From assembly GCF_024346355.1 (NCBI RefSeq), contig NZ_JAGQCU010000001.1, forward strand, positions 372,001 to 436,000: 64,000 bases of DNA, written 5' to 3'. This document shows, in pieces, positions 10,547 to 33,391 of the stretch. A model generated the notes under the pieces. The model was given only the letters and a program-made list of their open reading frames with translations, was not told the origin of the DNA and did not search any database. The translations under genes and the position numbers were made by a program. Every line of letters begins with the position of its first letter. Positions within the stretch are counted from its first letter, which is position 1. The DNA is from Cyanobium sp. ATX 6A2 (GTDB lineage Bacteria; Cyanobacteriota; Cyanobacteriia; PCC-6307; Cyanobiaceae).

Positions 10547-10611
10547 GAGCCCCTTCATCTGTGGGTGGAACACCTGAATCCGCTGGTTCATCCCTGGTTG
10601 AGCGGATTCTG

Positions 10612-10634
10612 ATTCTGTACAGCCTGTACAGAAT
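10612..10634 (+). promoter_or_regulatory. 23-bp perfect palindrome with CTGTACAG core repeats
   Basis: Two perfect 11-bp arms around one central base; each arm ends in CTGTACAG, so the site reads CTGTACAG-N-CTGTACAG. It lies between vapC (ends 10546) and the truncated Uma2 fragment. The 40 bp after it resemble the sequence after 22514 (ACG.TGG.C..AAAACAGCC), so both are copies of one element. Probable dimeric repressor site; the regulator is unknown. Confidence 0.55.
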
Positions 10635-10674
10635 GACGATGGACCGAAAACAGCCTCCACGTGGGCACCAGGCA

Positions 10675-10800
10675 GGCATCGGGATTGGCCTGGCACACGC
10701 GCTCGAACTGATCGGCGTTGAGCCGCAGGTCCCACGGCAGCTGCAGCGGCTGCACACCCGGCGGCGAGCTCTGCGGCGAGCTTGGCGGCGCCAGCGTCAT
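10675..10800 (-). pseudogene. truncated Uma2 nuclease (N-terminal 42 residues only)
   Basis: On the minus strand the ATG at 10800 starts TLAPPSSPQSSPPGVQPLQL, then LRLNADQFERVCQANPDA, nearly identical in the last 30 residues to the intact Uma2 gene at 11700-12332. Homology stops abruptly at 10675, where unrelated sequence continues the frame for 28 codons. The shared upstream region is also present, so a whole 5' module was duplicated and then cut. Confidence 0.8.
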
Positions 10801-10853
10801 CGGCCTTTCCCGGGTGATCTTCAGGGTAGAGGTGTGTTTTTGCCCCGACTGGC

Positions 10854-10870
10854 GGTGCTATCACGCTAGC
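10854..10870 (-). promoter_or_regulatory. shared upstream motif GCTAGCGTGATAGCACC (truncated Uma2 copy)
   Basis: Read on the minus strand, this 17-mer lies 54 bp before the ATG of the truncated Uma2 copy. It matches 23670-23686 at 16 of 17 positions, and related GATAGCGTGATAGCAGG sites lie at 4131-4147 and 4842-4858. Probably part of a promoter/operator carried along with the Uma2 5' end. Confidence 0.45.
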
Positions 10871-11014
10871 AAGCGCATGCAGGCGGAAAAAACACTGCGT
10901 CGCTTGGCTCAATTAGCAGACCGTCGAAATGATCGGCTATCGCCGATCTGGCCGCGCATCGCACCAGGGGCTGCGACCCTGGGCGCCGGCACGGACGCCA
11001 CGCCCCGAGCCCGT

Positions 11015-11743: not shown

Positions 11744-12332
11744 ACAACTCACCGCCATCGAGGCGGGTTGCGCTGTCGAGCCGCTCCGGGTTCGCTCCGG
11801 CACCGGCCCGCCAGATCTCCACCGCCCGCTCCTCGGGCAGCAACAACCAGCCCAGCTGGGCGCCATTGGCCAGGTAGGCGTCCATCTTCCGGCGCAGTGC
11901 GCTGAGGCCACGCGGCCCCTCATCAGATGCGCTGGCCAGTTCCGCCACCAGATCCGGGCAGAGGGGCGCGAAACCCCGTCGCTGCTCAGGGCTGAGGGCC
12001 TGCCAGCGCTCCAGCCGCACCAGGGTGGCATCGGGGCTGAGCACCGAGCCATCGGGAAGGCGGAAGCCGGCGGAACTGTCGAACACCCTCCAGCAACCCG
12101 ATGACTTGGCAAAGGTGGTGAGCTGAAACAGCAACTCGCTGTTGCGAGCGCCGGTTTCACTGCCGGTGGGCGTCATGGCGATCAGCTGGCCATCGGCGGA
12201 GAGTTCCAGCACGGCATCGGGATTGGCCTGGCACACGCGCTCGAACTGATCGGCGTTGAGCCGCAGGTCCCAGGGCAGCTGCAGCGGCTGCAGTGCTGCT
12301 GATGGGCTTGGCGGTGCCAGCGTCACGGACAT
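11700..12332 (-). CDS. Uma2-family (DUF820) PD-(D/E)XK endonuclease
   Basis: 210 residues. The family core is visible: LNADQFERVCQANPDAVLELSADGQLIAM, LPDGSVLSPDATLVR with the catalytic Asp, PDLVAELASASDE with the acidic residue, and KMDAYLANGAQLGWLLLPEE with the Lys region. Uma2 proteins are exceptionally expanded in cyanobacteria; a Holliday-junction or DNA-nuclease role is proposed by fold but not established. Intact relative of the 10675-10800 fragment and the likely donor of the 5' end of the pentapeptide gene at 23702. Confidence 0.85.
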   Translation of the reverse strand: MSVTLAPPSPSAALQPLQLPWDLRLNADQFERVCQANPDAVLELSADGQLIAMTPTGSETGARNSELLFQLTTFAKSSGCWRVFDSSAGFRLPDGSVLSPDATLVRLERWQALSPEQRRGFAPLCPDLVAELASASDEGPRGLSALRRKMDAYLANGAQLGWLLLPEERAVEIWRAGAGANPERLDSATRLDGGELFSGLVLDLGPIWDV

Positions 12333-20259: not shown

Positions 20260-21546
20260 GTGCTCGATCAGCGCCTGCTGCGCCAACACCCCGAGCAGAT
20301 CGTGGTTCAGCTCGCCCGCCGCGGCATCGAGGTTGACCTCACTGGTTTGCAGCTGATCGCCCGCCAGGAGCGCGACCTCGAGCAGCGCCGCAGCGAGCTC
20401 CAGGCCGAGGGCAACCGCGTGGGCAAGCAGGTGGGCGAACTGATCCGCGGCGGTGCCGGCCCCTCCGGCCCCGAGGTGGCCGCGCTGCGCGAGCAGGGCA
20501 ACCGCATCAAGCAGCAGGTGGCGGTGCTGGAGGAGGAGGAGAAGATCCTGGAGGAGAAGCTGCGCGAGCAGCTGCTCACCTTCCCAAACCTGCCCGCCCC
20601 CGAGGTGCCCGAGGGCGCCAGCGAGGCCGAGAACGTGGAGGTGAAGCGCTGGGGCAGCCCCCGCAGCGAAGCCGGCCTCCAGGAGCACTGGCAGATCGGC
20701 GAGCGGCTGGGCCTGTGGGAAACCGAGCGTTCGGTGCGCATCGCCCAGAGCCGCTTCATCACCCTGCTCGGCGCCGGCGCCCGCCTCGAGCGCGCCCTGA
20801 TCAGCTTCATGCTCGATCAGCACACGGGGCGCGGCTACACCGAGGTGCTGCCGCCGATTCTGGTGAACACCGCCAGCCTCACCGCCTCCGGCCAGCTGCC
20901 CAAGTTCGCCGAGGAGAGCTTCCGCTGCTCAGGCGACGACCTCTGGCTCACCCCCACCGCCGAGGTGCCGCTCACCTCCCTCCACCGCGACGAGGTGCTC
21001 CCCGCCGAGCAGCTGCCCCTGCGCTACTGCGCCTACACCCCCTGCTTCCGCCGCGAGGCCGGCTCCTACGGCCGCGACACCCGCGGCCTGATCCGCCTGC
21101 ACCAGTTCAACAAGGTGGAGCTCTACTGGTTCACCCGGCCTGAGGAGTCCGCCGCCGCCCACGAGCAGCTCACCCGCCACGCCGAAGCCATCCTCGAAAC
21201 CCTCGAGCTGCCCTACCGCCGCATCGAGCTCTGCACCGGCGATCTGGGCTTCTCCGCCGCGCGCACCTTTGATCTGGAGGTGTGGCTCCCCGGCGCCGGC
21301 GCCTACCGCGAAATCTCCAGCTGCTCGGTGTGCGGCGACTTCCAGGCCCGCCGCGCCGCCATCCGCTTCAAGGACGCCGACACCAAGGGCACCCAGCTCG
21401 CCCACACCCTCAACGGCTCCGGCCTGGCCGTGGGCCGCACCATGGCCGCCCTGCTCGAAAACGGCCAGCAGTCCGACGGCTCCGTGCAGCTGCCCGCAGC
21501 GCTGGTGCCCTACTTCGGCGGGGACAGGATCGGCCCGGCGGGGTGA
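20260..21546 (+). CDS. serS: seryl-tRNA synthetase
   Basis: 428 residues from GTG 20260, giving VLDQRLLRQHPEQIVVQLARRG, where SerS proteins normally begin with MLD-like sequence; the longer open frame upstream overlaps the pilin gene and is rejected. A long coiled-coil arm (RQERDLEQRRSELQAEGNRV ... ILEEKLREQL) that grips tRNA-Ser is followed by class II motif 2 (FRREAGSYGRDTRGLIRLHQF) and motif 3 (NGSGLAVGRTMAALLENGQ). Charges tRNA-Ser. In marine Synechococcus serS is, from memory, close to rseP-rpsN-pnp; here 10.7 kb of accessory DNA intervenes. Confidence 0.96.
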   Translation: MLDQRLLRQHPEQIVVQLARRGIEVDLTGLQLIARQERDLEQRRSELQAEGNRVGKQVGELIRGGAGPSGPEVAALREQGNRIKQQVAVLEEEEKILEEKLREQLLTFPNLPAPEVPEGASEAENVEVKRWGSPRSEAGLQEHWQIGERLGLWETERSVRIAQSRFITLLGAGARLERALISFMLDQHTGRGYTEVLPPILVNTASLTASGQLPKFAEESFRCSGDDLWLTPTAEVPLTSLHRDEVLPAEQLPLRYCAYTPCFRREAGSYGRDTRGLIRLHQFNKVELYWFTRPEESAAAHEQLTRHAEAILETLELPYRRIELCTGDLGFSAARTFDLEVWLPGAGAYREISSCSVCGDFQARRAAIRFKDADTKGTQLAHTLNGSGLAVGRTMAALLENGQQSDGSVQLPAALVPYFGGDRIGPAG

Positions 21547-21624
21547 GGGGCGTTGCGGTTTGGCAATCGCAACAGCGGCACTAACGTTGGGAAGGCCACC
21601 GGATCCCCTACCTGGCTCCCGAAC

Positions 21625-21858
21625 ATGACCGGCCAGCCCAGCCCCCTGATCACCTGCACGCCAGGAGTGCGCAGCGGCAAGGCATGCGTGGCAGGAACGC
21701 GGATCGCGGTCTACGACGTTCTCGAATATCTGGCCAGTGGCATGAGCCAAGACGACCTCCTGGCCGATTTCCCCGACCTGCGCACCGAACACATCCAGGC
21801 CGTACTGCGCTACGCGGCTGAGCGCGAAAAGCGGATCAGTGGCCTTACGGTGGCCTGA
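21625..21858 (+). CDS. DUF433 antitoxin-like protein
   Basis: 77 residues. ITCTPGVRSGKACVAGTRIAVYDVLEYLASGMSQDDLLADFPDL is the DUF433 winged-helix pattern (GKPCIRGTRI-like). DUF433 proteins are usually paired with a DUF5615 PIN-like protein, as here with the next gene 21 bp downstream; the pair is regarded as a type II TA module. The ATG at 21625 is chosen over an upstream ATG that lies just after serS. Confidence 0.88.
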   Translation: MTGQPSPLITCTPGVRSGKACVAGTRIAVYDVLEYLASGMSQDDLLADFPDLRTEHIQAVLRYAAEREKRISGLTVA

Positions 21859-21879
21859 GCCGCCCAGCTTCCTGATCAG

Positions 21880-22227
21880 GTGAAGGCAGGACGCTTGCTG
21901 TTCGATGAAAATCTCAGCCCCAGGCTGCCTACAGCACTATCCGATACATTTCCTGGTAGCACTCACGTCCGGGTCGTGGGGCTGAAAGGTGCTTCCGATC
22001 AGACGATCTGGGAGTTCGCCCTCAAGGCAGGATTCACGATCGTCACCAAAGATGACGATTTCAAAAGCCTGAGCCTGCTGCGTGGCGCTCCTCCCAAGGT
22101 GGTGTGGCTCTTGGTGGGCAACACGAGCACAGCAGAGATCCAGCAGTGTCTTCTCAGGTATTTCTCCACCATCGAGTCCTTCATTGCTGAACCGACCACC
22201 TCCCTGCTGATCCTGCGCAAGAGTTGA
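21880..22227 (+). CDS. DUF5615 PIN-like protein (partner of DUF433)
   Basis: 115 residues from GTG 21880. LLFDENLSPRLPTALSD has the metal-binding DEN motif, and DQTIWEFALKAGFTIVTKDDDF the TKDxDF motif of the DUF5615/Mut7-C-like PIN fold. Probably an RNase toxin held in check by the DUF433 protein. Full length for the family. Confidence 0.87.
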   Translation: MKAGRLLFDENLSPRLPTALSDTFPGSTHVRVVGLKGASDQTIWEFALKAGFTIVTKDDDFKSLSLLRGAPPKVVWLLVGNTSTAEIQQCLLRYFSTIESFIAEPTTSLLILRKS

Positions 22228-22234
22228 GCAAACA

Positions 22235-22480
22235 ATGGATCAGCCCCAACACCTGAGCACCCAGCTGGAAGGCATGGAGCGGCTGCTGGATGCCGACACC
22301 GGAGCGATCCTGTTCCGCCACCCCACGCTGCGGGGCATCCCCGATTTGGTGCTGGAAGGCGATGGCTACACCCTGGAGTTCATTGGCCCCACACTGCTCT
22401 GCATCGACATCCGCAACCCGGCAGGGCTCGCCAGGCTGCTGGCCGAGCCGTTCAAGGCCCAGCTTCCCGTGGCGGTGTAA
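22235..22480 (+). CDS. small hypothetical protein
   Basis: 81 residues from ATG 22235, seven bases after the DUF5615 stop, so possibly the third gene of that operon. It has a regular pattern of hydrophobic strands (LVLEGDGYTLEFIGPTLLCIDI) and no recognised motif. Base composition and third-position GC are like the neighbours, supporting coding. Function not recognised. Confidence 0.5.
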   Translation: MDQPQHLSTQLEGMERLLDADTGAILFRHPTLRGIPDLVLEGDGYTLEFIGPTLLCIDIRNPAGLARLLAEPFKAQLPVAV

Positions 22481-22497
22481 ACGGCGATTTCCCCAAC

Positions 22498-22514
22498 CTG
22501 TACAGGCTGTACAG
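22498..22514 (+). promoter_or_regulatory. CTGTACAG-N-CTGTACAG palindrome
   Basis: Two CTGTACAG octamers separated by one G, the same arrangement as at 10612-10634. The next ~35 bp (ACGGTTGGTCAAAAAACAGCC) resemble those after the first copy. It precedes the decayed DUF2887 fragment and may be its former operator. Confidence 0.55.
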
Positions 22515-22521
22515 ATCACGG

Positions 22522-22713
22522 TTGGTCAAAAAACAGCCCTACCCCCCGGTGCAGCCGCGGGTCCACCGGGTGGCGCTGCACCGCAGCGGGCCCCAGCAAC
22601 CAGCCCTGCTGCAAAACCTCACCCTCATCCCCACTACCCTGGTTTATGGCCGCCCGGAAGAGGAGATCGCTGCCATGGCCGGCATCACCGCCTGGCTGGC
22701 CGCCAACGCCTGA
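22522..22713 (+). pseudogene. internally deleted copy of the DUF2887 gene
   Basis: The 63-codon frame ends LTLIPTTLVYGRPEEEIAAMAGI then TAWLAANA. The intact gene just downstream has LTLIPTILIARFYDRPVEEIAAMAGI in its middle and LTAWLAANA at its very end. The fragment therefore joins the middle of the gene directly to its C-terminus, with the N-terminal domain also missing. A shrunken paralogue; not expected to work. Confidence 0.75.
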
Positions 22714-22727
22714 GGGGGGTGCAGCCG

Positions 22728-23597
22728 TTGCTTTCAGACAAGCTGTTCTTCTGGCTCTTCCAGAACCGCCCCGATCGCATCCTCACGCTGCTCGATGGCC
22801 TGCCGGCTGACGCCTGCGGCTACAGCTTCTCGGCCCCTGTTCTCAAACAGCGCGAATACCGCCTGGATGGCCTGTTCCTCCCACCGCCCAACCGCCCCGA
22901 TCTGCCGGCACTGATCCTGGAAGCCCAGATGGCGCCCGACCCCGGTTTCCTCCGCCGTCTCTACGCGGAAACGGCCCGCCTGCTCCAGCAGCAGCCGACC
23001 ATCACGGCCTGGCGCGTGCTGGTGATCACCCCGTCGCGCCATCTCGACTTCGGTGATCCCGGGCCCGTGGCCGAGTTTCTCGAGCGGCGGCTGCACTGGG
23101 TGGAGCTGCAACCGCAGCGCTGGCCCCAGCAGCCAGCTCAGCCAGCCATTCCCCTGTTCCAACGCCTGCTGGCGCTGCTGGTACAACCGGAAGCGCAGAT
23201 CCCCACAGCGGTGCAAGGCCTGCGCCGTGAGGCCCCACTCCTGCCAACACCAGACGAGGCCGCCGACCTGCTCACCCTCATCCCCACTATCCTGATTGCA
23301 AGATTTTATGACCGCCCGGTAGAGGAGATCGCTGCCATGGCCGGCATCACCGCCGACGATTTCACCCAGAGCGTGGCCTACCGCCAGATCTTTGGCCTCG
23401 GCAAAGCTGAGGGCGAGGCCAAAGGCGAGGCCAAGGTCGCCCTTCGCCAGCTCGGCCGCCTCTGCGGCCCCCTGAGCCCCGACACCACCGCCCGGATCAA
23501 GGCGCTACCGCTGGGGAAGCTCGAATCGCTGGCCGATGCCCTGCTCGATTTCCAGGGTCCGGCCGATCTCACCGCCTGGCTGGCCGCCAACGCCTGA
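22728..23597 (+). CDS. DUF2887/DUF4351 (Rpn-like PD-(D/E)XK) protein
   Basis: 289 residues from TTG 22728. LSDKLFFWLFQNRPDRIL is the usual start of DUF2887 proteins; YRLDGLFLPP ... LILEAQMAPDPGFLRRLYAE carries the D-(X)n-ExQ nuclease-like core related to Rpn/transposase_31 nucleases. The C-terminus (LGRLCGPLSPDTTARIKALPL ... LADALLDFQGPADLTAWL) is a DUF4351 domain. These proteins are expanded in cyanobacteria; related Rpn proteins are recombination-promoting DNases. A short repeat GEAKGEAK lies in the linker. Confidence 0.82.
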   Translation: MLSDKLFFWLFQNRPDRILTLLDGLPADACGYSFSAPVLKQREYRLDGLFLPPPNRPDLPALILEAQMAPDPGFLRRLYAETARLLQQQPTITAWRVLVITPSRHLDFGDPGPVAEFLERRLHWVELQPQRWPQQPAQPAIPLFQRLLALLVQPEAQIPTAVQGLRREAPLLPTPDEAADLLTLIPTILIARFYDRPVEEIAAMAGITADDFTQSVAYRQIFGLGKAEGEAKGEAKVALRQLGRLCGPLSPDTTARIKALPLGKLESLADALLDFQGPADLTAWLAANA

Positions 23598-23669
23598 AGG
23601 GGCGCAGCCTCAGCCTGCACCCCGATCACCTAATCGGCCTACCGCTGAAAAGTCTTCTCTGCGTCCGCC

Positions 23670-23686
23670 GCTAGCGTGATATCACC
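23670..23686 (+). promoter_or_regulatory. Uma2-type upstream motif before the pentapeptide gene
   Basis: GCTAGCGTGATATCACC, 16 of 17 bases identical to the motif upstream of the truncated Uma2 copy (10854-10870, minus strand). It supports capture of a Uma2 promoter by the downstream gene. Confidence 0.5.
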
Positions 23687-23701
23687 TGCTGTGCAGGTCT
23701 G

Positions 23702-24520
23702 ATGACCCTCGCCGCCAACCCCGATGCCGTGCTCCAACGCAGCGCCGACGGCCACCTGCACGCCAAGAGAACGAAACCAGCCACCACCTGGTACGACAAC
23801 CAGCAGCGCCGCCGCAGCTCGCCCTTCTTTCGCCGGCTCGATCGCTCCTTCAGGTTCCGGGTGCTGATCGCTGCGGCCTGCTCCTTCGCGCTGCTCTCTG
23901 CGGTAAACCGCTTCGAGAACTGCCATACCTCCCGGCTCGAGCCCGACTGCCTCACCAGCGACTATCTCGACATCATCAGCATCGGCAACGTCGAGACGTT
24001 CAGCCTTGTGGCCGCCGCCTTCGTGTACATCTTCGAGGCGGGCAAACGCAAGGAGCGCGAGCATCACGAGATGTTCGATCTCCTGCTCGCCCAGCGCCAG
24101 GCCGGCGCCTCCAACAGCCTCGGCCGCATCCGCGCCCTCGAGGATCTCTCCGCCGCCGGGCTCTGGCAGGACGGCTTCGATCTGCAGCGCACCAACCTCG
24201 AGGGCCTGCGCATTCCCTTCAGCCGCTGGCGCGGCGCCAACTTCTCCGGCACGGTGCTCCGCCATGCCGACCTGCACGGCGTGGATCTGCAGGGCGCCGA
24301 TTTCAGCGACGCCGATCTCACCGGCGCCGATCTCTCAGGGGCGGATCTCACCAGCGCCCGGTTCGCGCGGGCCCGTCTATGCCAGGCCGATCTGCGCGGC
24401 GCCCGCCTCGCCGGCGCCGACTTCCAGGACGCCGACCTCAGCGGCACCCTCGCCGACCAGCCCCTGCAGGCCAGCGGTGCTGCCGCCAGCGTTGATTCGC
24501 AGCAGTTCCGCTCAACCTGA
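23702..24520 (+). CDS. membrane-anchored pentapeptide-repeat protein with Uma2-derived 5' end
   Basis: 272 residues. The first ~21 residues (MTLAANPDAVLQRSADGHLHA) match a shortened Uma2 N-terminus (MTLA ... ANPDAVLELSADGQLIA). Then a basic stretch, a hydrophobic segment near residues 55-65 (VLIAAACSFALLSAV), a second around 98-110 (FSLVAAAFVYIF), a helical linker, and from about residue 160 a run of pentapeptide repeats (ANFSG, ADLHG, VDLQG, ADFSD, ADLTG, ADLSG, ADLTS) that build a right-handed beta-helix. The native start may lie downstream of the Uma2-like part. Function unknown. Confidence 0.8.
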   Translation: MTLAANPDAVLQRSADGHLHAKRTKPATTWYDNQQRRRSSPFFRRLDRSFRFRVLIAAACSFALLSAVNRFENCHTSRLEPDCLTSDYLDIISIGNVETFSLVAAAFVYIFEAGKRKEREHHEMFDLLLAQRQAGASNSLGRIRALEDLSAAGLWQDGFDLQRTNLEGLRIPFSRWRGANFSGTVLRHADLHGVDLQGADFSDADLTGADLSGADLTSARFARARLCQADLRGARLAGADFQDADLSGTLADQPLQASGAAASVDSQQFRST

Positions 24521-24606
24521 CACTGACGCTGGAGCACAACGAAGACCAACCCCACGCTCTGGCGTTGCAGCTGCACGAGATCGGGACCGGTTACTGCCGG
24601 CGACCC

Positions 24607-25336
24607 TCACGCAGCAGCATGGATGGCGCCAGCCCGTAGCGGCTGGCGAATCCACTGAATCGGGCCGCAGCCGAAGCGCTGCCGGAACACCAGTTGCAGG
24701 CTGCGGCGTGAATAACCACTGCGCCGCTCCAGCTGGGTGAGGTTGATCGGGGTGTGCAGATGGGCGCGAATCCACTCCAGCAGCTCCTCGAAGATCCGCT
24801 GCCGGCCACCGTTCTGCTCAGGTGTGCGGGCCGGTTGCTGCTCCAGCCCCGAACACAGCAGCACCTGCAGCGCGCCATCGGTCTCCTGTTCCGGATGATC
24901 GAGAAAGCGAATCGCTCCGTGCAGGATCTCAAGCAGGCGTTGCCGGCGCTGGTCTGCGCGGCGCACCACCCTGGCGAACGACAGCTCCTGGGTGAAGCGT
25001 CGCTCGGACACCCCCAGCCCGGCGATGGCAGCGGCGGTGTACCGATACTCCTGGCCGGGCGTGAAGAACAGCGGACAGCTGGCGTTGAGCGCCAGCTTCA
25101 GCCCGCCGGTTTCGTATTCGATGCTGCCGCCGAAGATGAAGTTGATTGAACCGAAGATCACCCACCGCACAGGTGGTGGTGCGATGCAGGAAATCGGCCT
25201 CGAATCCCGGCCGGGGCCCGAAGTCCAGCACGGCATAGTGCTGCGCCAGTTGCGCAGCCAGGGCCTGGGGAGCGGGGCCCATCAGCGTGCAGGATGGCCC
25301 CGCAAGATCGGAAGCCGCAGGCAACTTAAGACGCAC
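24607..25336 (-). pseudogene. AraC-family regulator, frameshifted and 3'-shortened
   Basis: Two frames are needed to read one AraC-like protein. From GTG 25336 the first frame gives LPAASDLAGPSCTLMGPAPQ ... DFLHRTTTCAVGDLRF. Around 25,150-25,160 the family-like sequence continues in another frame with FIFGGSIEYETGG ... CPLFFTPGQEYRYTA and the first HTH half (INLTQLERRSGYSRRSLQLVFRQRFGCGP) with IQWIRQ. The second HTH of AraC proteins is missing, the frame ending at 24607. Both lesions suggest a dead gene, though a sequencing error at the frameshift cannot be excluded. Confidence 0.65.
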
Positions 25337-25373
25337 CCCGATCGATGGCCATTCGTTCCTCCGCACTGGTGCT

Positions 25374-26258
25374 TTGACAGCCCAAACCACCGTGGCCCTG
25401 CTGGTGCCACTCACGCTCTTCACCGTGATGCTGGCCCTGGGCGTGAACCTGCCGCTGCAGGCCTTTCAGCACTGGCGCCGCCACTGGCCCCTGATCCTGC
25501 GGGCCCAGCTCGCCACCTGCCTGCTGGTGCCCCTGGTGGGCTGGCTCCTGCTCAGCCTGCCCCCTGCCCAGGCCCTCTCCATCGAGGCGCGCCATGCCAT
25601 CGCCCTGATGGCCGCCTGCCCCAGCGCCCCCCTGATCCTGCGCAAGGCGGGGAAAAGCGGCGGCGATGCCTCCCTGGCCGCCCTACTCCAGGTGTGCGCC
25701 GCCGTGCTGGCGATCGTGACGCTGCCCCTGCTGGCCGACCTGAGCGGGCCGGTCTTCGCCGTGCAGGGCTGGGATCTCCTGCTTCCACGCCAGGTGGCGC
25801 TGCAGGTGGGCCAGGTGCAGCTGCTGCCGCTGCTGCTGGGCCTGGCGCTCGGCCACCTGCTGAGCGAGCGCAGGCAGGGGCTGCGGCGGGTGCTCGATCG
25901 GCTCGCCAATGGCCTGCTGGTGCTGCTGGTGCTGGCGGTGCTCGTGCGCACGGCACCGCTGCTGCTCCAGTTCTCCAGCGCCAACCTGGGGGCCATCGGC
26001 GTGATGGTGCTGCTGGTGCTGGTCAGCCTGATGCTCGGCTACGGGCTGGCCGGCGGTGAGGGCACCCAGAGCGGCCAGCGCGTCACCGTGGCGCTGGTCA
26101 CCTCGATGCGCAACCCGGGGCTGGCCCTGCTGCTGGCCACCACCTATGCCCCCGAGATGCCCGCGGTGAAGCTCGGCATCATCGTCTACGTGCTGGTCAC
26201 GGTGCTGGTGTCGCTGCCGGTGCTGCGCTGGCAGCGCCGCACCCTCCAGCCGCACTGA
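25374..26258 (+). CDS. bile acid:sodium symporter (BASS)-family membrane transporter
   Basis: 294 residues from TTG 25374 (an upstream GTG at 25287 is less likely because it overlaps the regulator remnant). Nine or ten hydrophobic segments, with the family-like HAIALMAACPSAPLILRKAG in the middle and VTSMRNPGLALLLATTYAP near the end, where BASS proteins have a conserved RNxGLA motif. Likely a Na+-coupled carrier of an organic anion; substrate unknown. It diverges from the broken AraC gene, which may once have controlled it. Confidence 0.72.
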   Translation: MTAQTTVALLVPLTLFTVMLALGVNLPLQAFQHWRRHWPLILRAQLATCLLVPLVGWLLLSLPPAQALSIEARHAIALMAACPSAPLILRKAGKSGGDASLAALLQVCAAVLAIVTLPLLADLSGPVFAVQGWDLLLPRQVALQVGQVQLLPLLLGLALGHLLSERRQGLRRVLDRLANGLLVLLVLAVLVRTAPLLLQFSSANLGAIGVMVLLVLVSLMLGYGLAGGEGTQSGQRVTVALVTSMRNPGLALLLATTYAPEMPAVKLGIIVYVLVTVLVSLPVLRWQRRTLQPH

Positions 26259-26385
26259 CGCCACGGGCTCTGAAGTTTGCAGAACAGGCCATTGCGAAAT
26301 CCCCGCAACCATGGCGCCATGGTTGCCATTCCGCCCCACGGCCATTCAGCCTGGAGGTTGCTTTGCTCCCGTTCCGGGTCTCCCA

Positions 26386-27894
26386 ATGCCCAAAGGCAAG
26401 CCCAACATCCTCATCCTCTGGGGCGATGACATCGGCCAGAGCAACCTGAGCTGCTACAGCCATGGCCTGATGGGCTACGAAACCCCCAACATCGACCGGG
26501 TGGCCAAGGAGGGCGGCAAGTTCATCCACTACTACGCCGAACAGAGCTGCACCGCCGGCCGCGCCGCCTTCATCAGCGGCCAGAGCGTGTACCGCACCGG
26601 CCTGAGCAAGGTGGGGCTGCCAGGGGCAGAGGCGGGCTACCAGGCCGAAGATCCCACCATCGCCGACCTGCTCAAACCCCTCGGCTACCGCACCGGCCAG
26701 TTCGGCAAGAACCACTTCGGTGACCGCGACGAACACCTGCCCACCATGCACGGGTTCGACGAGTTCCTCGGCAACCTCTACCACCTCAACGCGGAAGAAG
26801 AGCCCGAGCTGCGCGACTACCCGAAGGAAGATGACCCGGAGTTTCCCAACTTCCGCAAGCGCTTCGCCCCCCGCGGCGTGCTCCATTGCTGGGCCAACGG
26901 CGATGGCACCCAGCGGATCGAGAACACCGGCCCGCTCACCCGCCAGCGGATGGAAACCGCCGACGATGAGTTCATGGCCGAAGCCAAGCGCTTCATCCGC
27001 GATGCGGTGGCCTCCGGTGAGCCCTTCTTCGTGTGGTTCAACACCACCCACATGCACTTCCGCACCTACGCCAGGCCCCAGGACGTGGGCCGCAGCGGGC
27101 GCTGGCAGTCGGAATACCACGACGTGATGATCTATCACGACGAGTGCATCGGCGAGATGCTGGATCTGCTCGATGAGCTGGGCGTCACCGACGACACGAT
27201 CGTGATGTACAGCACCGACAACGGGCCGCACATGAACAGCTGGCCCGATGCCGGCATGACCCCCTTCCGCAGCGAGAAGAACAGCAACTGGGAAGGGGCC
27301 TACCGGGTGCCGGCCCTGGTGCGCTGGCCCGGCCGGATTGCGCCGGGCACCACTTTCAAGGGCATCGTCAGCCACCTCGACTGGCTGCCCACGCTGGTGG
27401 CGGCCGCCGGTGAGGACGACGTGAAGGAGAAGCTCAAAACCGGCCACCAGGTGGGTGCCAAGACCTTCAAGGTGCACCTCGACGGCTACAACATGCTCGA
27501 CTACTGGACCGGCCAGAGCGACACCAGCCCGCGGCGCGAATTCTTCTACTTCTCCGACGACGGCGATCTCACCGGCCTGCGCTACGACAACTGGAAGTTT
27601 GTGTTCATGGAGCAGCGCGCCCAGGGCACCTGCCAGATCTGGGCCGAGCCCTTCACCCAGCTGCGGGTGCCGAAGATCTTCAACCTGCTCACCGACCCCT
27701 ACGAGCGGGCCGACATCACCTCCAACACCTACTGGGACTGGATGTTCGATCACATCTTCCTGCTGGTGCCAGCCCAGACCTACGTGGGCCAGTTCCTGCA
27801 GACCTTCGTGGAGTTCCCGCCCCGCCAGAAGGCCGCCAGCTTCTCGGTGCAGCAGGTGCTCGACAAGATGGAGGCCACGATGGGCCAGTCGTAG
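26386..27894 (+). CDS. type I sulfatase (arylsulfatase family)
   Basis: 502 residues from ATG 26386. The metal-binding start KPNILILWGDDIGQSNLSCYS, the modification site SCTAGRAAFISGQ (Cys to formylglycine, CxAxR type), HMHFRTYA and VMYSTDNGPHMNSWPD with metal and substrate residues match the sulfatase family. Hydrolyses sulfate esters, substrate unknown. No signal peptide is seen, so a cytoplasmic location is inferred. The next gene encodes the formylglycine-generating enzyme that would activate it, only 4 bp downstream. Confidence 0.92.
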   Translation: MPKGKPNILILWGDDIGQSNLSCYSHGLMGYETPNIDRVAKEGGKFIHYYAEQSCTAGRAAFISGQSVYRTGLSKVGLPGAEAGYQAEDPTIADLLKPLGYRTGQFGKNHFGDRDEHLPTMHGFDEFLGNLYHLNAEEEPELRDYPKEDDPEFPNFRKRFAPRGVLHCWANGDGTQRIENTGPLTRQRMETADDEFMAEAKRFIRDAVASGEPFFVWFNTTHMHFRTYARPQDVGRSGRWQSEYHDVMIYHDECIGEMLDLLDELGVTDDTIVMYSTDNGPHMNSWPDAGMTPFRSEKNSNWEGAYRVPALVRWPGRIAPGTTFKGIVSHLDWLPTLVAAAGEDDVKEKLKTGHQVGAKTFKVHLDGYNMLDYWTGQSDTSPRREFFYFSDDGDLTGLRYDNWKFVFMEQRAQGTCQIWAEPFTQLRVPKIFNLLTDPYERADITSNTYWDWMFDHIFLLVPAQTYVGQFLQTFVEFPPRQKAASFSVQQVLDKMEATMGQS

Positions 27895-27898
27895 GCCG

Positions 27899-28837
27899 AT
27901 GCGGGTTCAGCATCCCGCCGGCCCGGGGCGCCCTCCGGCTCCGGGCATGGCCTGGGTGCCGGGTGGGGAGTGTGTGATCGGCTCCGATCACCACTACCCC
28001 GAGGAAGCCCCGGCCCATCTGGTCACCGTGGCGGGGTTCTGGATCGACCGCACGCCGGTCACCAACGCCCAGTTCCTCAAGTTCGTGAAGGCCACCGGCC
28101 ACCGCACCCAGGCCGAGCTGCCCGCCGATCCGGCCCTCTACCCCGGGGCCGATCCCACACGCCTGCAACCGGCCTCGATCGTGTTCGTGCCCCCCGCCGG
28201 TCCGGTGGGTCAGCAGGATCACTACCGCTGGTGGCAGTACCTGAGCGGTGCCGACTGGCGCCATCCGGAAGGGCCGGGCAGTTCGATCAAGGGCCGCGAC
28301 CAGCACCCGGTGGTGCACATCGCCCATGCCGATGCCCTGGCCTATGCCCACTGGTGCGGCAAGCAGCTGCCCACCGAAGTGGAGTGGGAGCGGGCCGGCT
28401 GGGGCGGGCGCGAGGGCTGCGAATTCGCCTGGGGGGATGAGCTCCACCCCGGCGGCATCCCCGTGGCCAACACCTTTCAGGGCGACTTCCCCCACCACAA
28501 CAGCCGCCTTGATGGCTATGAACGCACCTCGCCGGTGGGCGCCTACCCAGCCAATGGCTACGGCCTGGTGGACATGATCGGCAACGTGTGGGAGTGGACC
28601 GACAGCTGGTATGGCCCCCATGAGCCGGATCCATCGGGGTGCTGTGCAACCGCGGCGGCCAGCATCGATCCCCGCTCCCAGCATGGGGAGCAGCCGCGCA
28701 AGGTGGTGAAGGGCGGCTCCTTTCTCTGCGCCCCCAGCTACTGCCGCCGCTACCGCCCGGCGGCGCGCCTGGCCCAGGGCATCGACACCTCCACCTGCCA
28801 CATGGGCTTCCGCTGCATCGTGCGCACGGCCCCATGA
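27899..28837 (+). CDS. formylglycine-generating enzyme (sulfatase-modifying factor)
   Basis: 312 residues from ATG 27899. MAWVPGGECVIGSDHHYPEEAPAH and FWIDRTPVTNAQFLKFV open the FGE domain; LPTEVEWERAG, MIGNVWEWT and GGSFLCAPSYCRRYRPAAR follow. The two Cys in the last motif are the copper-binding active-site pair of true aerobic FGE, so this is a real enzyme rather than a Cys-less relative. It converts the sulfatase active-site Cys to formylglycine using O2. Placed directly after its probable substrate. Confidence 0.93.
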   Translation: MRVQHPAGPGRPPAPGMAWVPGGECVIGSDHHYPEEAPAHLVTVAGFWIDRTPVTNAQFLKFVKATGHRTQAELPADPALYPGADPTRLQPASIVFVPPAGPVGQQDHYRWWQYLSGADWRHPEGPGSSIKGRDQHPVVHIAHADALAYAHWCGKQLPTEVEWERAGWGGREGCEFAWGDELHPGGIPVANTFQGDFPHHNSRLDGYERTSPVGAYPANGYGLVDMIGNVWEWTDSWYGPHEPDPSGCCATAAASIDPRSQHGEQPRKVVKGGSFLCAPSYCRRYRPAARLAQGIDTSTCHMGFRCIVRTAP

Positions 28838-29412
28838 AGCAGATGCTGCAGCGCAACCGCCTGCTCTCCACCCTGATCGGCGTGGCGCTGGGCTACGCCA
28901 TCGTGCAACGCCTCCCCCTGGTGCCCGCCACCCTGGTGAGCGCCCTGGTGCTGGCGGCAGGGGCCGGCTTCTGCAACCAGCTGCGCCACCCGGGGTCGTG
29001 GTGGGGGGTGATCGGCCTGGCCTGCGGCGCCCTGGTGGGCACCGGCACCGTGCTGGCCGACAAGCTCAAAACCGCCGACCCGGCCGACCACGCCAGCGAG
29101 CGGGGGCTCGTGGTGCTGGCGCTGGTGGTGGCCGGCGCCATCGTGGGCCAGCTGTTCGGCAACGCGGCCAACCTCAACCCCAACCAGCAGCCACGCGATC
29201 TGATCCGCTCCGCCAGCGCCCTCACCACCGGCGTCTTCGCCGCCATCGTCACCCTCACCTACGTGCACTCCGGCCTGGATGTGGCACGCACCTTCTCCAG
29301 CCGGCTCAGCACCGCGCTCACGATTCTGGTGGTGTCGCTGGCCGCACCGGCCTGGGCCAGCCATCTCGTGCGCCTCGACAGACGCCGCAACCAGGACCAG
29401 CAGGACGGCTGA
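28834..29412 (+). CDS. hypothetical multi-spanning membrane protein of the sulfatase operon
   Basis: 192 residues from ATG 28834, overlapping the FGE stop (ATGA). About five hydrophobic segments (LLSTLIGVALGYAIV, LVPATLVSALVLAAGAGF, WWGVIGLACGALVGTG, LVVLALVVAGAIVGQLF, LTILVVSLAAPAW). No family recognised. Translational coupling to FGE suggests a related role, for example sulfate ester or sulfate transport, but this is inference. Confidence 0.7.
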   Translation: MKQMLQRNRLLSTLIGVALGYAIVQRLPLVPATLVSALVLAAGAGFCNQLRHPGSWWGVIGLACGALVGTGTVLADKLKTADPADHASERGLVVLALVVAGAIVGQLFGNAANLNPNQQPRDLIRSASALTTGVFAAIVTLTYVHSGLDVARTFSSRLSTALTILVVSLAAPAWASHLVRLDRRRNQDQQDG

Positions 29413-29424
29413 ACCCCGCCGCCC

Positions 29425-30333
29425 TCAGAAGAAGAACTTCAGCCCCAGTTCGATGCCGTTCTGGTAGTTGCTGAAGCCACTGCTGGGATTGCGGTCATTG
29501 CGGTACTTCACCCCCAGGTAGCGCCAGGAGAGATTCAGGTTGGTGTTGTTGCCGATGGCATACCCCACACCCACCTGGGCATTGCCGGAGAGGTCCTGAT
29601 CACCGCTGAGCCCGAAGCCGCCGATGTCGGCCCTGGCAAAGGCGCGCAGGCGGGGGGTGAGAAACACGCTGCCCTGCAGGCCCACCAGCGGCTGGGCCCA
29701 GGTGCGCCCGAAACTGCCTTCCCGCTCGAACATCACCCCCAGCGGCCCGGTGCCCTGCACCTGAGCGTCCACATCCAGATCGGCGGCAATCACCCGCACC
29801 CCCGCATAGGGGATGAGGCTGAAGGAGCCTTTTTCGGCCACGGCGGCCTCCGGCTCGCCGAAGCGATAGCGCACCGCCAGGTCGTAGATGCCCAGGGAAC
29901 TGCTCACCTCGGCCTTGCCCGTGAGCCGGTCGCCGGGGCCGGTGCGGGCTCCACTGGCACCGAGCCGCACGTAACTGAGATCGGTGAGCAGTCCCCAGCG
30001 GTCGCGTTCCACACTGCCGCGCACATAGGTGGCCCAGTCGAGGGCGGAGAGCACATCGCCCAGATCGAGATCCACATCCGCCTCGAAGCCCCGCACCCGG
30101 GTGGTGCCGGTGGTTCTCAGCGGGGCGAAGCCATACAGCTCCACCGTGCTGCGCCAGGGGGACGGAGTGGCAGCTTCGGCCTCAAGGGTTTCCAGCTCGA
30201 GGGTTTCGGCCTCAAGCGATTCGATCTCTGCGGGTTCGGCGCGGCCGGAGGGTTGCACCAGCAGCAGCCCCCCCACAGCAACGCTCAGAAGGGGGATTCG
30301 AGTTACCAGAACACGCACGAAGGTTGTAGTCAT
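29425..30333 (-). CDS. outer-membrane beta-barrel protein
   Basis: 302 residues from ATG 30333. Signal peptide (VRVLVTRIPLLSVAVGGLLLVQPSGRA), then an unusual Glu/Leu repeat (IESLEAETLELETLEAEA), then alternating beta strands typical of an 8-10-stranded barrel (YGFAPLRTTG, GLLTDLSYVRLGASG, YDLAVRYRF, NLNLSWRYLGVKY) ending ELGLKFFF, with the C-terminal Phe used for outer-membrane insertion. Function unknown. It converges on the sulfatase operon with 12 bp between. Confidence 0.75.
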   Translation of the reverse strand: MTTTFVRVLVTRIPLLSVAVGGLLLVQPSGRAEPAEIESLEAETLELETLEAEAATPSPWRSTVELYGFAPLRTTGTTRVRGFEADVDLDLGDVLSALDWATYVRGSVERDRWGLLTDLSYVRLGASGARTGPGDRLTGKAEVSSSLGIYDLAVRYRFGEPEAAVAEKGSFSLIPYAGVRVIAADLDVDAQVQGTGPLGVMFEREGSFGRTWAQPLVGLQGSVFLTPRLRAFARADIGGFGLSGDQDLSGNAQVGVGYAIGNNTNLNLSWRYLGVKYRNDRNPSSGFSNYQNGIELGLKFFF

Positions 30334-30377
30334 GCAGAAGAATAGGCTGGATTTCGGGAGGTGCTGGGTCTCGGGGC

Positions 30378-31343
30378 TCAAACGCTGCCGAAGGCTACCT
30401 GGCAGGCCGCATTCATCAGTTCAGCCTCCCCAATGGTGTTGGGGGTGCTGCCGTTGAGGGTGCCCCGGCGACAGTCGGCCCGCATCGTGATGCGTGTTTC
30501 TCCCATGAAGGCCTCAAAATTCACCACATCCGTGCCCGCCGGTGCAATGGTGCCGTACATCAGCTCGAAGTTGCTGTTGGGAATCACGATGTAGGTCACC
30601 TGATTGTTCACGGCATCATTCACAGCGGCATTGATCACGGCAGCCGTGGTGAGGGAGGCCACACCCCAGGCCGTCGCCCGGGGGCCCCACCAGCCCCAGC
30701 TGGGGCTGGACCAGCCGCCATACCAGCCGGTGTTCCAGGGCCGGGCGTAGCCCCAGCCCGGGCGGGCCCAGCCGGGGTGGCTGTCCCAGTAGTTGCGGCC
30801 GCGGCTGTCCACCCGGTCACGGCGCACCCTGGAGCGGTCTTCCACCCGATCCGTGCGGTTTTCGATGCGGGTTGTGCGCACGTCACCGCGTTGGTCGATG
30901 CGCTCCATGCGCACATCGGAGCGCTGGCTGAGATTGTCGCTGCGCACGCTTGTCTGGCGATTGACCGTCTGGCGACTGCCGCTCGGTTGGTTGCGATTGA
31001 GGTCGCGGCTGCCACTGCCAAGGCCGCTGCCGCGTGGTTGCGCCGCCGCTCTGGGCCGCTCCAGCGACGGACCGCTGCTGCTCCTCGACTGGCTGCTCCA
31101 GCCGCCACTGGGCCTGTTGGAGCCGCTGCTGAGGCCGGGGCCAGAGCTTTGAAAGCCACTGTTGCCCCGTCTGCCGCCTCCCCCACTGCCGATGCCACCG
31201 CCGCCACGCGCCAGCAGGGCGGCGCCATGGGATGGGTTGGCTCCGGCTGCGCTGCCCCCGAGCGCCAGGGCCGGGGTGATCCAGCTGGGCAGTGCCAGCA
31301 CGCCGGTGAGCAGCAGGCTGACGCGTTGTGCCGTGCGGTTCAT
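30378..31343 (-). CDS. secreted low-complexity protein
   Basis: 321 residues. Signal peptide (MNRTAQRVSLLLTGVLALPSWITPALA), a Gly/Ser-rich region (GGGGIGSGGGGRRG), an Arg/Asp-rich heptad-like stretch of repeated R..R..R and DRV(D/E) units (about residues 120-185), a Trp/Gly-rich segment (GWARPGWGYARPWNTGWYGG), then a conserved-looking globular end (NNQVTYIVIPNSNFELMYGT). Resembles cyanobacterial secreted proteins of unknown role. Its ATG overlaps the preceding gene stop by one base (TGATG). Confidence 0.65.
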   Translation of the reverse strand: MNRTAQRVSLLLTGVLALPSWITPALALGGSAAGANPSHGAALLARGGGGIGSGGGGRRGNSGFQSSGPGLSSGSNRPSGGWSSQSRSSSGPSLERPRAAAQPRGSGLGSGSRDLNRNQPSGSRQTVNRQTSVRSDNLSQRSDVRMERIDQRGDVRTTRIENRTDRVEDRSRVRRDRVDSRGRNYWDSHPGWARPGWGYARPWNTGWYGGWSSPSWGWWGPRATAWGVASLTTAAVINAAVNDAVNNQVTYIVIPNSNFELMYGTIAPAGTDVVNFEAFMGETRITMRADCRRGTLNGSTPNTIGEAELMNAACQVAFGSV

Positions 31344-31855
31344 CAGCGCAGCTCCTTGCAGCCGTCGTCGTAGCAGGTGAGGTGCACGCGCCCGCTGTCA
31401 TCGAAGCGCACCTGCACCAGGTCGCGGCCGGCAGACGCATCGGGGCGGTCTTCGCGCACGCTGTTGAGGTAGTTGGCATTCACCACACACAGATCGCGTC
31501 CGTTGAAGCAGATCGTGTTGGTGGAGAAGCGTGCGGCGGCGCTGCTGAGGGGGGTCCAGGTTTTCGTGCCGGCATCCCACAGAGTCATGCGCACCGGAGC
31601 ATCGCTGATACGCACGGTTTCAACGCGCCCGCCGATCACGTGGCGATAGGTGGTGCCTTCCGCAGTTTGCGTGGCCTCAACCACGCAGGGCTCGGGCTCA
31701 CCACCGGCCAAGGAACAGCTGGTTTGCAGGGTGTAGAGCACTTCAGGAGCTTCAGTGCGCGCCTGGGCTGAAGGCAGCACCACACCAACGGCAAAGGCCG
31801 CGAGCATCAGGAGGATGGAGATCGACATGAATCGGCGAGCACCAAGTGTGGTCAT
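31343..31855 (-). CDS. secreted hypothetical protein
   Basis: 170 residues with an N-terminal signal segment (FMSISILLMLAAFAVGVVLPSAQA). The mature part contains six Cys (TSCSL, EPCVV, TICFN, DLCVV, LTCYD, DGCKE), probably three disulfides, and short beta strands (VQVRFDDSGRVHLTCYD). First gene of a two-gene operon with the low-complexity secreted protein. No family recognised. Confidence 0.65.
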   Translation of the reverse strand: MTTLGARRFMSISILLMLAAFAVGVVLPSAQARTEAPEVLYTLQTSCSLAGGEPEPCVVEATQTAEGTTYRHVIGGRVETVRISDAPVRMTLWDAGTKTWTPLSSAAARFSTNTICFNGRDLCVVNANYLNSVREDRPDASAGRDLVQVRFDDSGRVHLTCYDDGCKELR

Positions 31856-31998
31856 GATCAGTGCAACCTAAGTGATGGTGAGTCCCGCAATCAGGCATCC
31901 CAACGGCAATACTTGGCCAGAAGCGAAAGGATTGCACCTGAGCGCAAATTTTTTCTGCGTTCAGAAAGCATCACAGCAGCACTCCCAGCCCGATCCGT

Positions 31999-32136
31999 TC
32001 AGATGATCGTGATCGACCCACTCTCAGACACCAGCGCATCGTTGATCGCCAGCCAGGTACAAAGCCCGCCTTTCAGGTCAAAGGCCACCGCCCCGAACAC
32101 GCCAGTGCCGAATCGTCTCTGGCACCCCTTCTGCAC
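31999..32136 (-). CDS. possible small ORF in the 31,856-32,302 intergenic region
   Basis: A minus-strand frame from GTG 32136 gives 45 residues ending GTGVFGAVAFDLKG, LCTWLAINDALVSE and SGSITII, which looks protein-like. The start is unclear and the gene may be a remnant of something longer. The remaining ~300 bp of this gap holds an imperfect hairpin at 31943-31967 and a run of 11 C at 32208-32218, and otherwise nothing recognised. Confidence 0.3.
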   Translation of the reverse strand: MQKGCQRRFGTGVFGAVAFDLKGGLCTWLAINDALVSESGSITII

Positions 32137-32302
32137 GCGCGAACTGCGATTGCGGCCATCGGTCGAGGCCATCGATCCAGTCCGTCACCACAGGCCGGCG
32201 CCGCCCACCCCCCCCCCCGGGATCACACCCCCAGCCTGATCGGCTCAGAACGCAACGCCACCCGAATCGGCCCCACAATGGACGTTCTACACAACGGTCT
32301 GA

Positions 32303-33391
32303 ATGGGTGTTCTGGCGGCTCTGGCGATCCTCGCCGGCCTGATCGTGGTGCATGAGGCGGGGCACTTCTTTGCCGCCACCTGGCAGGGCATCCGCGTGAG
32401 CAGCTTCTCGATCGGCTTCGGGCCGGTGCTGCTGCAGCGCCAGCGCCGCGGCGTGCAGTTCGCCCTGCGGGCCATTCCCCTGGGCGGCTTCGTGGCCTTC
32501 CCCGACGACGAGGCCGGCAGCACGATCCCCAAGGACGACCCCAACCTGCTCTCCAACCGGCCCCTGCCCCAGCGCGCCCTGGTGATCGCCGCCGGTGTGC
32601 TGGCCAACCTGCTGCTGGCCTGGCTGGTGCTGGTGGCCCAGAGCGCCGTGGTGGGCATTCCCGCCGGCTTCAGCGCCACCCCCGGCGTGCTTGTGAGCGG
32701 CGTGCAGAGCGGCCAGCCCGCCGCCATCGCCGGTCTCCAGCCCGGCGACCGCATCCTCAGCCTCGCCGGCGAACCCCTGGCCGGCGGCCAGACGGCCGTG
32801 ATGGAGATGGTGGAGCGCATCCAGGCCTCCCCCAGCCAGTCGCTGGAGCTGGTGGCCGAGCGCAACGGCAGCCGGGTGCAGCTCCAGCTCACCCCCAGTG
32901 ATCTCGATGGCACCGGCCGCGTGGGCGCCCAGCTGCAGCCTTTCGGCGAAGAGGCCTACCGGCCCGCCCGCGGCCCCCTGGAGCCGATCCGCCAGGCCAA
33001 CCGCGACTTCACCACCCTGCTCAGCCGCACCGCCGGCGGCTTCTTCACCCTGATCACCCACTTCGGCGAAACCGCCGGCCAGGTGAGCGGTCCGGTGAAG
33101 ATCGTGGAGATGGGCGCCTCCTTCGCCCAGCAGGGCGGCAGCAGCCTGTTCCTGTTCACCGCCCTGATCTCGATCAACCTGGCGGTGCTCAACGCCCTGC
33201 CCCTGCCCCTGCTCGATGGCGGCCAGTTCGTGCTGCTGCTGCTCGAGGGCCTGCGCGGCCGGCCCCTGCCTGAGCGCCTGCAGATGGCCTTCATGCAGTC
33301 GGGCTTCGTGTTCCTGGTGGGCCTCAGCCTGGTGCTGATCGTGCGCGACACCTCCCAGCTGCCGGCCGTGCAGCAGCTGCTCGCCCGCTGA
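32303..33391 (+). CDS. rseP: site-2 membrane metalloprotease (RseP/M50 family)
   Basis: 362 residues. Zinc-binding HEAGH lies in the first membrane helix (LIVVHEAGHFFAAT) and the third ligand in NALPLPLLDGGQFVLL near the C-terminus; a PDZ domain sits between (VQSGQPAAIAGLQPGDRILSLAGEPL). The short single-PDZ form is typical of cyanobacteria. Performs regulated intramembrane proteolysis of signalling or sigma-factor partners. A run of 11 C lies about 85-95 bp before the ATG. Confidence 0.93.
   Translation: MGVLAALAILAGLIVVHEAGHFFAATWQGIRVSSFSIGFGPVLLQRQRRGVQFALRAIPLGGFVAFPDDEAGSTIPKDDPNLLSNRPLPQRALVIAAGVLANLLLAWLVLVAQSAVVGIPAGFSATPGVLVSGVQSGQPAAIAGLQPGDRILSLAGEPLAGGQTAVMEMVERIQASPSQSLELVAERNGSRVQLQLTPSDLDGTGRVGAQLQPFGEEAYRPARGPLEPIRQANRDFTTLLSRTAGGFFTLITHFGETAGQVSGPVKIVEMGASFAQQGGSSLFLFTALISINLAVLNALPLPLLDGGQFVLLLLEGLRGRPLPERLQMAFMQSGFVFLVGLSLVLIVRDTSQLPAVQQLLAR

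Follow-up and report, generated by a model that had tools for sequence, protein, structure and literature searches.

That genes can become fused through deletions is already known. In the wrinkly spreaders of Pseudomonas fluorescens, deletions gave in-frame fusions with promoter capture during experimental evolution (PMC4395868). This is the clearest precedent that we found for promoter capture by deletion, and it comes from laboratory evolution, whereas the locus analyzed here is a natural case. The donor family at this locus is Uma2 (PF05685), which we take to be the same family as DUF820. In Synechocystis, DUF820 proteins have been associated with toxin-antitoxin loci (PMC4963859). No Uma2-pentapeptide fusion was found in the literature surveyed, a survey that was not directed at that pair.

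The fused gene belongs to Cyanobium sp. ATX 6A2 (genome G000; 3.0 Mb, 46 contigs) and lies within a stretch of 64,000 nt (contig NZ_JAGQCU010000001.1, positions 372,001 to 436,000), which is called the window throughout and to which all coordinates refer. We consider it very likely that the 5′ end of this gene arose by natural start capture, and probably also promoter capture, through deletion of a decayed uma2 neighbour. As in the wrinkly spreaders, the 5′ end of an upstream gene was joined in frame to a downstream gene by deletion, with a possible new promoter. Unlike those fusions, the present one belongs to a natural lineage, the donor was already decaying, and the recipient lost its own start.

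The fused open reading frame

The layout of the locus is summarized in Table 1. An earlier note, made from the window alone, had described a 17-nt motif and a Uma2-like start in frame with a membrane pentapeptide protein, and these elements were all recovered. From ATG 23702, where the MTLA start lies, the N-terminus is predicted to read MTLAANPDAVLQR, and codons 5–19 (23714–23758), encoding ANPDAVLQRSADGHL, match Uma2. A 55-nt stretch around ANPDAVL is 80% identical to positions 12227–12173(−) of the intact Uma2 gene of the window, at a distance of 11.5 kb (E 1.7e-8 for the window alone), and 13 of the 15 residues of ANPDAVLxxSADGHL are common to the Uma2 protein of locus L098. The ANPDAVL segment resembles paralogues more closely than it does the uma2 gene of a relative, G121, in which uma2 is intact. 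Measured against that orthologous gene, about 25 codons are missing from the frame, in keeping with the 20–25 lost internal codons proposed earlier; measured against MTLAPP-type copies, about 30 are missing. The last two codons of the segment (HA) may have come from the pentapeptide side.

Table 1. Features of the fused gene, its flanking anchors and the Uma2 copies of the window.
Feature	Position	Strand	Evidence or remark
Truncated Uma2 copy with upstream 17-nt motif	10588..10871	−	ATG at 10800
Intact Uma2 gene, 210 aa	11700..12332	−	PF05685 E 2.4e-33
serS (seryl-tRNA synthetase), left anchor	20260..21546	+	PF00587, PF02403
Segment 5′ of the 17-nt motif	23609..23668	+	Common to uma2-remnant loci of relatives; DNA alignments
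17-nt motif CGCTAGCGTGATATCAC	23669..23685	+	−10-like TAGCGT at 23672–23677; uma2-derived
Remaining uma2 leader up to the start codon	23686..23701	+	Gapless alignment with G121 to ATG
uma2-derived codons 1–21 (start, MTLA, ANPDAVLQRSADGHL)	23702..23764	+	DNA and residue matches
AAG (Lys22) at the ATG start position of five genus orthologues	23765..23767	+	
Pentapeptide-repeat membrane protein body	23765..24520	+	Pfam, orthologue alignment, model
rseP-like M50 peptidase, right anchor	32303..33391	+	PF02163 E 3.8e-55

The frame opens at TAG 23672 and continues beyond the Uma2 part as a 272-aa pentapeptide-repeat protein (stop side 24520; PF00805 E 1.7e-42, 142.9 bits vs. a curated cut-off of 20.2). 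ATG 23702 and GTG 23729 are the only ATG, GTG or TTG codons ahead of the first of its two N-terminal hydrophobic helices, and the next in-frame start, codon 54, lies within that helix. Since both starts are in Uma2-derived DNA, the full-length protein would have to begin there, barring a rarer start codon. Capture of the start from uma2 is strongly supported at the level of sequence.

In Pfam, the whole frame matches pentapeptide and decapeptide families only; for the 21 added residues alone, there was no family match, and the curated cut-off of Uma2 (PF05685) was not reached. Like Uma2/DUF820 genes, the window gene has a uma2-derived leader, start and codons 5–19; unlike them, it retains only about 19 of their codons, and the nuclease-like domain is gone. 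With PF00805 proteins it shares C-terminal repeats with a predicted beta-helix, and it differs from them in its two N-terminal hydrophobic helices; a search against solved structures gave matches mainly in the repeat region. The AlphaFold model of the fused protein is weak (mean pLDDT 65.7, pTM 0.45; residues 1–25 with pLDDT below 50) and predicts the added 21 residues to be disordered. An arginine-rich stretch ahead of the first helix places them probably on the cytoplasmic side. A tail predicted to be disordered and probably cytoplasmic is likely to have its main effect on expression and less on activity.

The 17-nt motif occurs at one further site in the window with up to three mismatches, at 10871–10855(−) ahead of the truncated Uma2 copy (two sites observed vs. 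0.05 expected from shuffles). GCTAGCGTGATATCACC is indeed identical at 16/17 positions to its counterpart there, as had been noted. However, the distance from the motif TAG to the ATG is 68 nt at the truncated copy vs. 30 nt at the fused gene, so that this comparison is not leader to leader and is the weaker match; the truncated copy ranks fifth of 25 leaders compared, and the 17-nt match was rejected as proof of a shared leader. On another contig of the genome, three sites that are almost identical to the motif (GCTATCGTGATATCAC) lie within 3 kb (G000:C6 28931, 30802 and 31624; L006, L007 and L008).

Homologues of the pentapeptide gene

Some pentapeptide match was present in 198 of the 201 family-sample genomes, mostly to the repeats only. 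Thirty loci fetched from this search, the window and 29 others (L019–L047), were compared. In the 29 others the matches begin at codons 7 to 28 of the window protein, and codons 1–21 are reproduced in none of them; the same N-terminus without Uma2 similarity, which the earlier note had named as evidence against its reading, is therefore absent from all 29. Just two of the loci have Uma2-like DNA upstream of the homologue, L019 (G180) and L058 (G203), the latter an addition to the test; in both genomes this DNA belongs to a separate, decayed uma2.

Within the genus, 8 of the 13 genomes have a match at E ≤1e-20 and 6 of 13, the window included, at 81% identity or more. Hence, an old gene has acquired a new 5′ end. 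The earlier interpretation is accordingly supported only in part: the start and the upstream element are uma2-derived, but the creation of a new gene is not supported, as the gene they precede existed before.

The fusion itself is present in 1 of the 13 genus genomes. At codon 22 of the window frame the five other genus orthologues all have their own ATG (5/5), whereas the window has AAG, which, given the single genome, rests on one assembly. A single base separates ATG from AAG, and an assembly or sequencing error would leave the start at codon 22 and turn the uma2 part into an untranslated leader. We regard such an error as improbable; moreover, the fusion is independent of that base, and no stop interrupts the frame between the ATG of uma2 and the end of the body, on a contig of 474,727 bases.

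Loss of the original ATG could also mark a pseudogene junction, with the pentapeptide gene dying and the upstream frame open by chance, and the last residues have been changed as well, by a 7.8-kb insert. This explanation appears quite unlikely, although a little less so than a base error, because the 272-codon frame is intact and dN/dS for the shared body is 0.22 vs. G180 (0.24–0.39 vs. the four others). On the window branch, which includes pre-fusion time, polarised changes comprise 16 synonymous and 10 nonsynonymous substitutions; the G180 branch has 13 and 11, so that the window branch has no nonsynonymous excess. These values suggest that the gene body is under purifying constraint; they do not suggest decay, though the window branch spans time before the fusion.

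The uma2 gene between serS and rseP in relatives

In G121, a genome with no close pentapeptide gene, serS and the rseP-like gene flank an intact uma2 gene (202 aa). Its leader aligns with window 23665–23704 end to end, from ATG to ATG (z 18.1 against shuffles). Next in rank are the leaders of the remnants in G203, G180 and G155, followed by the truncated copy of the window; the remaining 20 Uma2 leaders score close to background (z ≤2.3). Over longer stretches, window 23609–23710 is 79% identical to G180, 23612–23708 is 75% identical to G203, and 23608–23685 is 82% identical to G155.

In both G180 (CSSed165cm_191R1) and G203 (Prado107), the decayed uma2 sits exactly between the leader and the pentapeptide gene, that is, directly upstream of the recipient. 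G203 has the leader, a TTG and a 95-codon uma2 remnant, the TGA of which lies 14 nt ahead of the pentapeptide ATG; the G180 remnant is shorter, with breaks in each of the three frames. G155 has the leader and GTGACCCTCGCC directly ahead of rseP and lacks the pentapeptide gene. In G099, serS almost adjoins the pentapeptide gene and there is no uma2. The presence of Uma2 genes is patchy (8 of 61 family-sample genomes).

These remnants also bear on whether the short N-terminus resembles Uma2 by chance. With just 21 residues, the added peptide has no Pfam match of its own. Nevertheless, a chance likeness is extremely improbable in view of two colinear DNA matches (E 1.7e-8; z 18), of uma2 remnants at the equivalent position in relatives and of the absence of this N-terminus from the 29 other homologue loci.

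The body of the G180 gene is the closest to that of the window (93% at the DNA level), yet its leader is only 79% identical, and the ANPDAVL segment retained by the window is missing from both G180 and G203. Taken together, these differences lead us to assume that deletions occurred independently in an older allele, or that the interval recombined. Descent of the window allele from the G180 allele was rejected because of the absence of ANPDAVL from G180 and G203.

The serS-rseP interval (21547–32302) differs in most of the congeners examined and seems to have undergone insertion and loss repeatedly. The interval of G155 holds a DUF2887-like piece and the uma2 leader, and that of G140 about 2 kb of other DNA. 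In the window, serS is directly followed (21553–22227) by a DUF433 gene and a DUF5615 (PIN-like) gene, which resemble a toxin-antitoxin pair. A DUF2887/DUF4351 gene is present in full and, upstream of the full copy, as a brief duplicate of its 3′ end (22600–22726 and 23280–23609; 88% identity across 50 nt at the stop codon). In G180 the pentapeptide gene adjoins rseP, whereas in the window the two are separated by a 7.8-kb block (24491–32270) with an SBF transporter, an AraC-type regulator, a sulfatase and a sulfatase-modifying factor gene, among others. The last residues of the window protein are altered, and a likeness to the former 3′ end (GPTMDV) persists in 32271–32302, ahead of rseP.

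A −10-like element in the uma2 leader

For Synechococcus elongatus, a −10 consensus of the TA...T type has been reported (PMC3219970). In the fused window gene, a −10-like element lies 30 nt before the ATG. Of 21 Uma2 genes of the genus, 14 have the pattern TA..[CG]TG 15–50 nt ahead of the start, mostly at 27–31 nt (shuffles: mean 0.98, maximum 6; random window segments: 0.8%). These 21 are the genus Uma2 matches, out of 26, that have an N-terminus, with starts picked by eye and five fragments excluded. The pattern was chosen post hoc from the genus leaders, and 13 held-out leaders from other genera are the only independent test; they remained from 22 rows after removal of five (G000/G030), two without an N-terminus and two without an ATG. 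Among them, 11 of 13 have the TAGCGTGA element, at 29–33 nt (shuffles: mean 0.33, maximum 3). The nearly fixed position at 27–33 nt in Uma2 genes (L094–L106, L130–L145) suggests very short 5′ leaders.

By comparison, such an element precedes 3 of the 71 mechanical open reading frames of the window, and none was found within 120 nt upstream of the five genus orthologues of the pentapeptide gene or of 23 distant homologues (25, less two without an ATG). The uma2-derived element as the captured promoter of the window gene is therefore well supported in silico. Alternatively, the remnant could be a passive leader, with the start captured but not the promoter, and the gene transcribed by read-through from the DUF2887 gene or serS. 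The orthologues in G180, G203, G030, G140 and G099 lack the element and so must be transcribed otherwise; in G099 the gene lies almost next to serS. We consider a passive leader unlikely, because element and 30-nt spacing are as in the 11 of 13 held-out leaders. Promoter take-over may even have preceded start capture, since the element in G203 could already drive the pentapeptide gene as the second gene of a short operon.

Discussion

In the history that we propose for the captured start, an ancestral uma2 gene, situated between serS and rseP and directly 5′ of the pentapeptide gene, would have decayed by deletions. In the window lineage, at least two deletions would have taken most of uma2, one within the N-terminal part, between MTL and ANPDAVL, and the other from SADGHL to just ahead of the neighbour's start codon. 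A single deletion was rejected, as the segments stand in an order that calls for two joins or more. Beside the second join there is an 8-nt repeat, CGCCATGA, common to Uma2 and the pentapeptide start, and there the CAC before GCC in the window follows the pentapeptide side. Of uma2, the leader, the start codon and about 15 codons from the interior would have been left over, in frame with the pentapeptide gene. The ATG of the pentapeptide gene would have changed to AAG, and translation would start from captured DNA, at ATG 23702 or GTG 23729; transcription would probably start from the captured −10-like element.

What is unusual here is that stages of the process survive in relatives and that the recipient's start is lost. 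Living genomes contain an intact donor, a decayed donor beside the recipient, and the fused gene without its own start. It is conceivable, though doubtful, that decaying genes of the uma2 type, with their compact, self-contained promoter, are recurrent donors of promoters and starts to adjacent genes; loss of the recipient's ATG would make such a take-over hard to reverse and bring a long-standing operon gene under new, independent control. Decay of a neighbouring gene can by itself furnish a bacterial protein with an N-terminal tail, which is relevant to the annotation of start sites.
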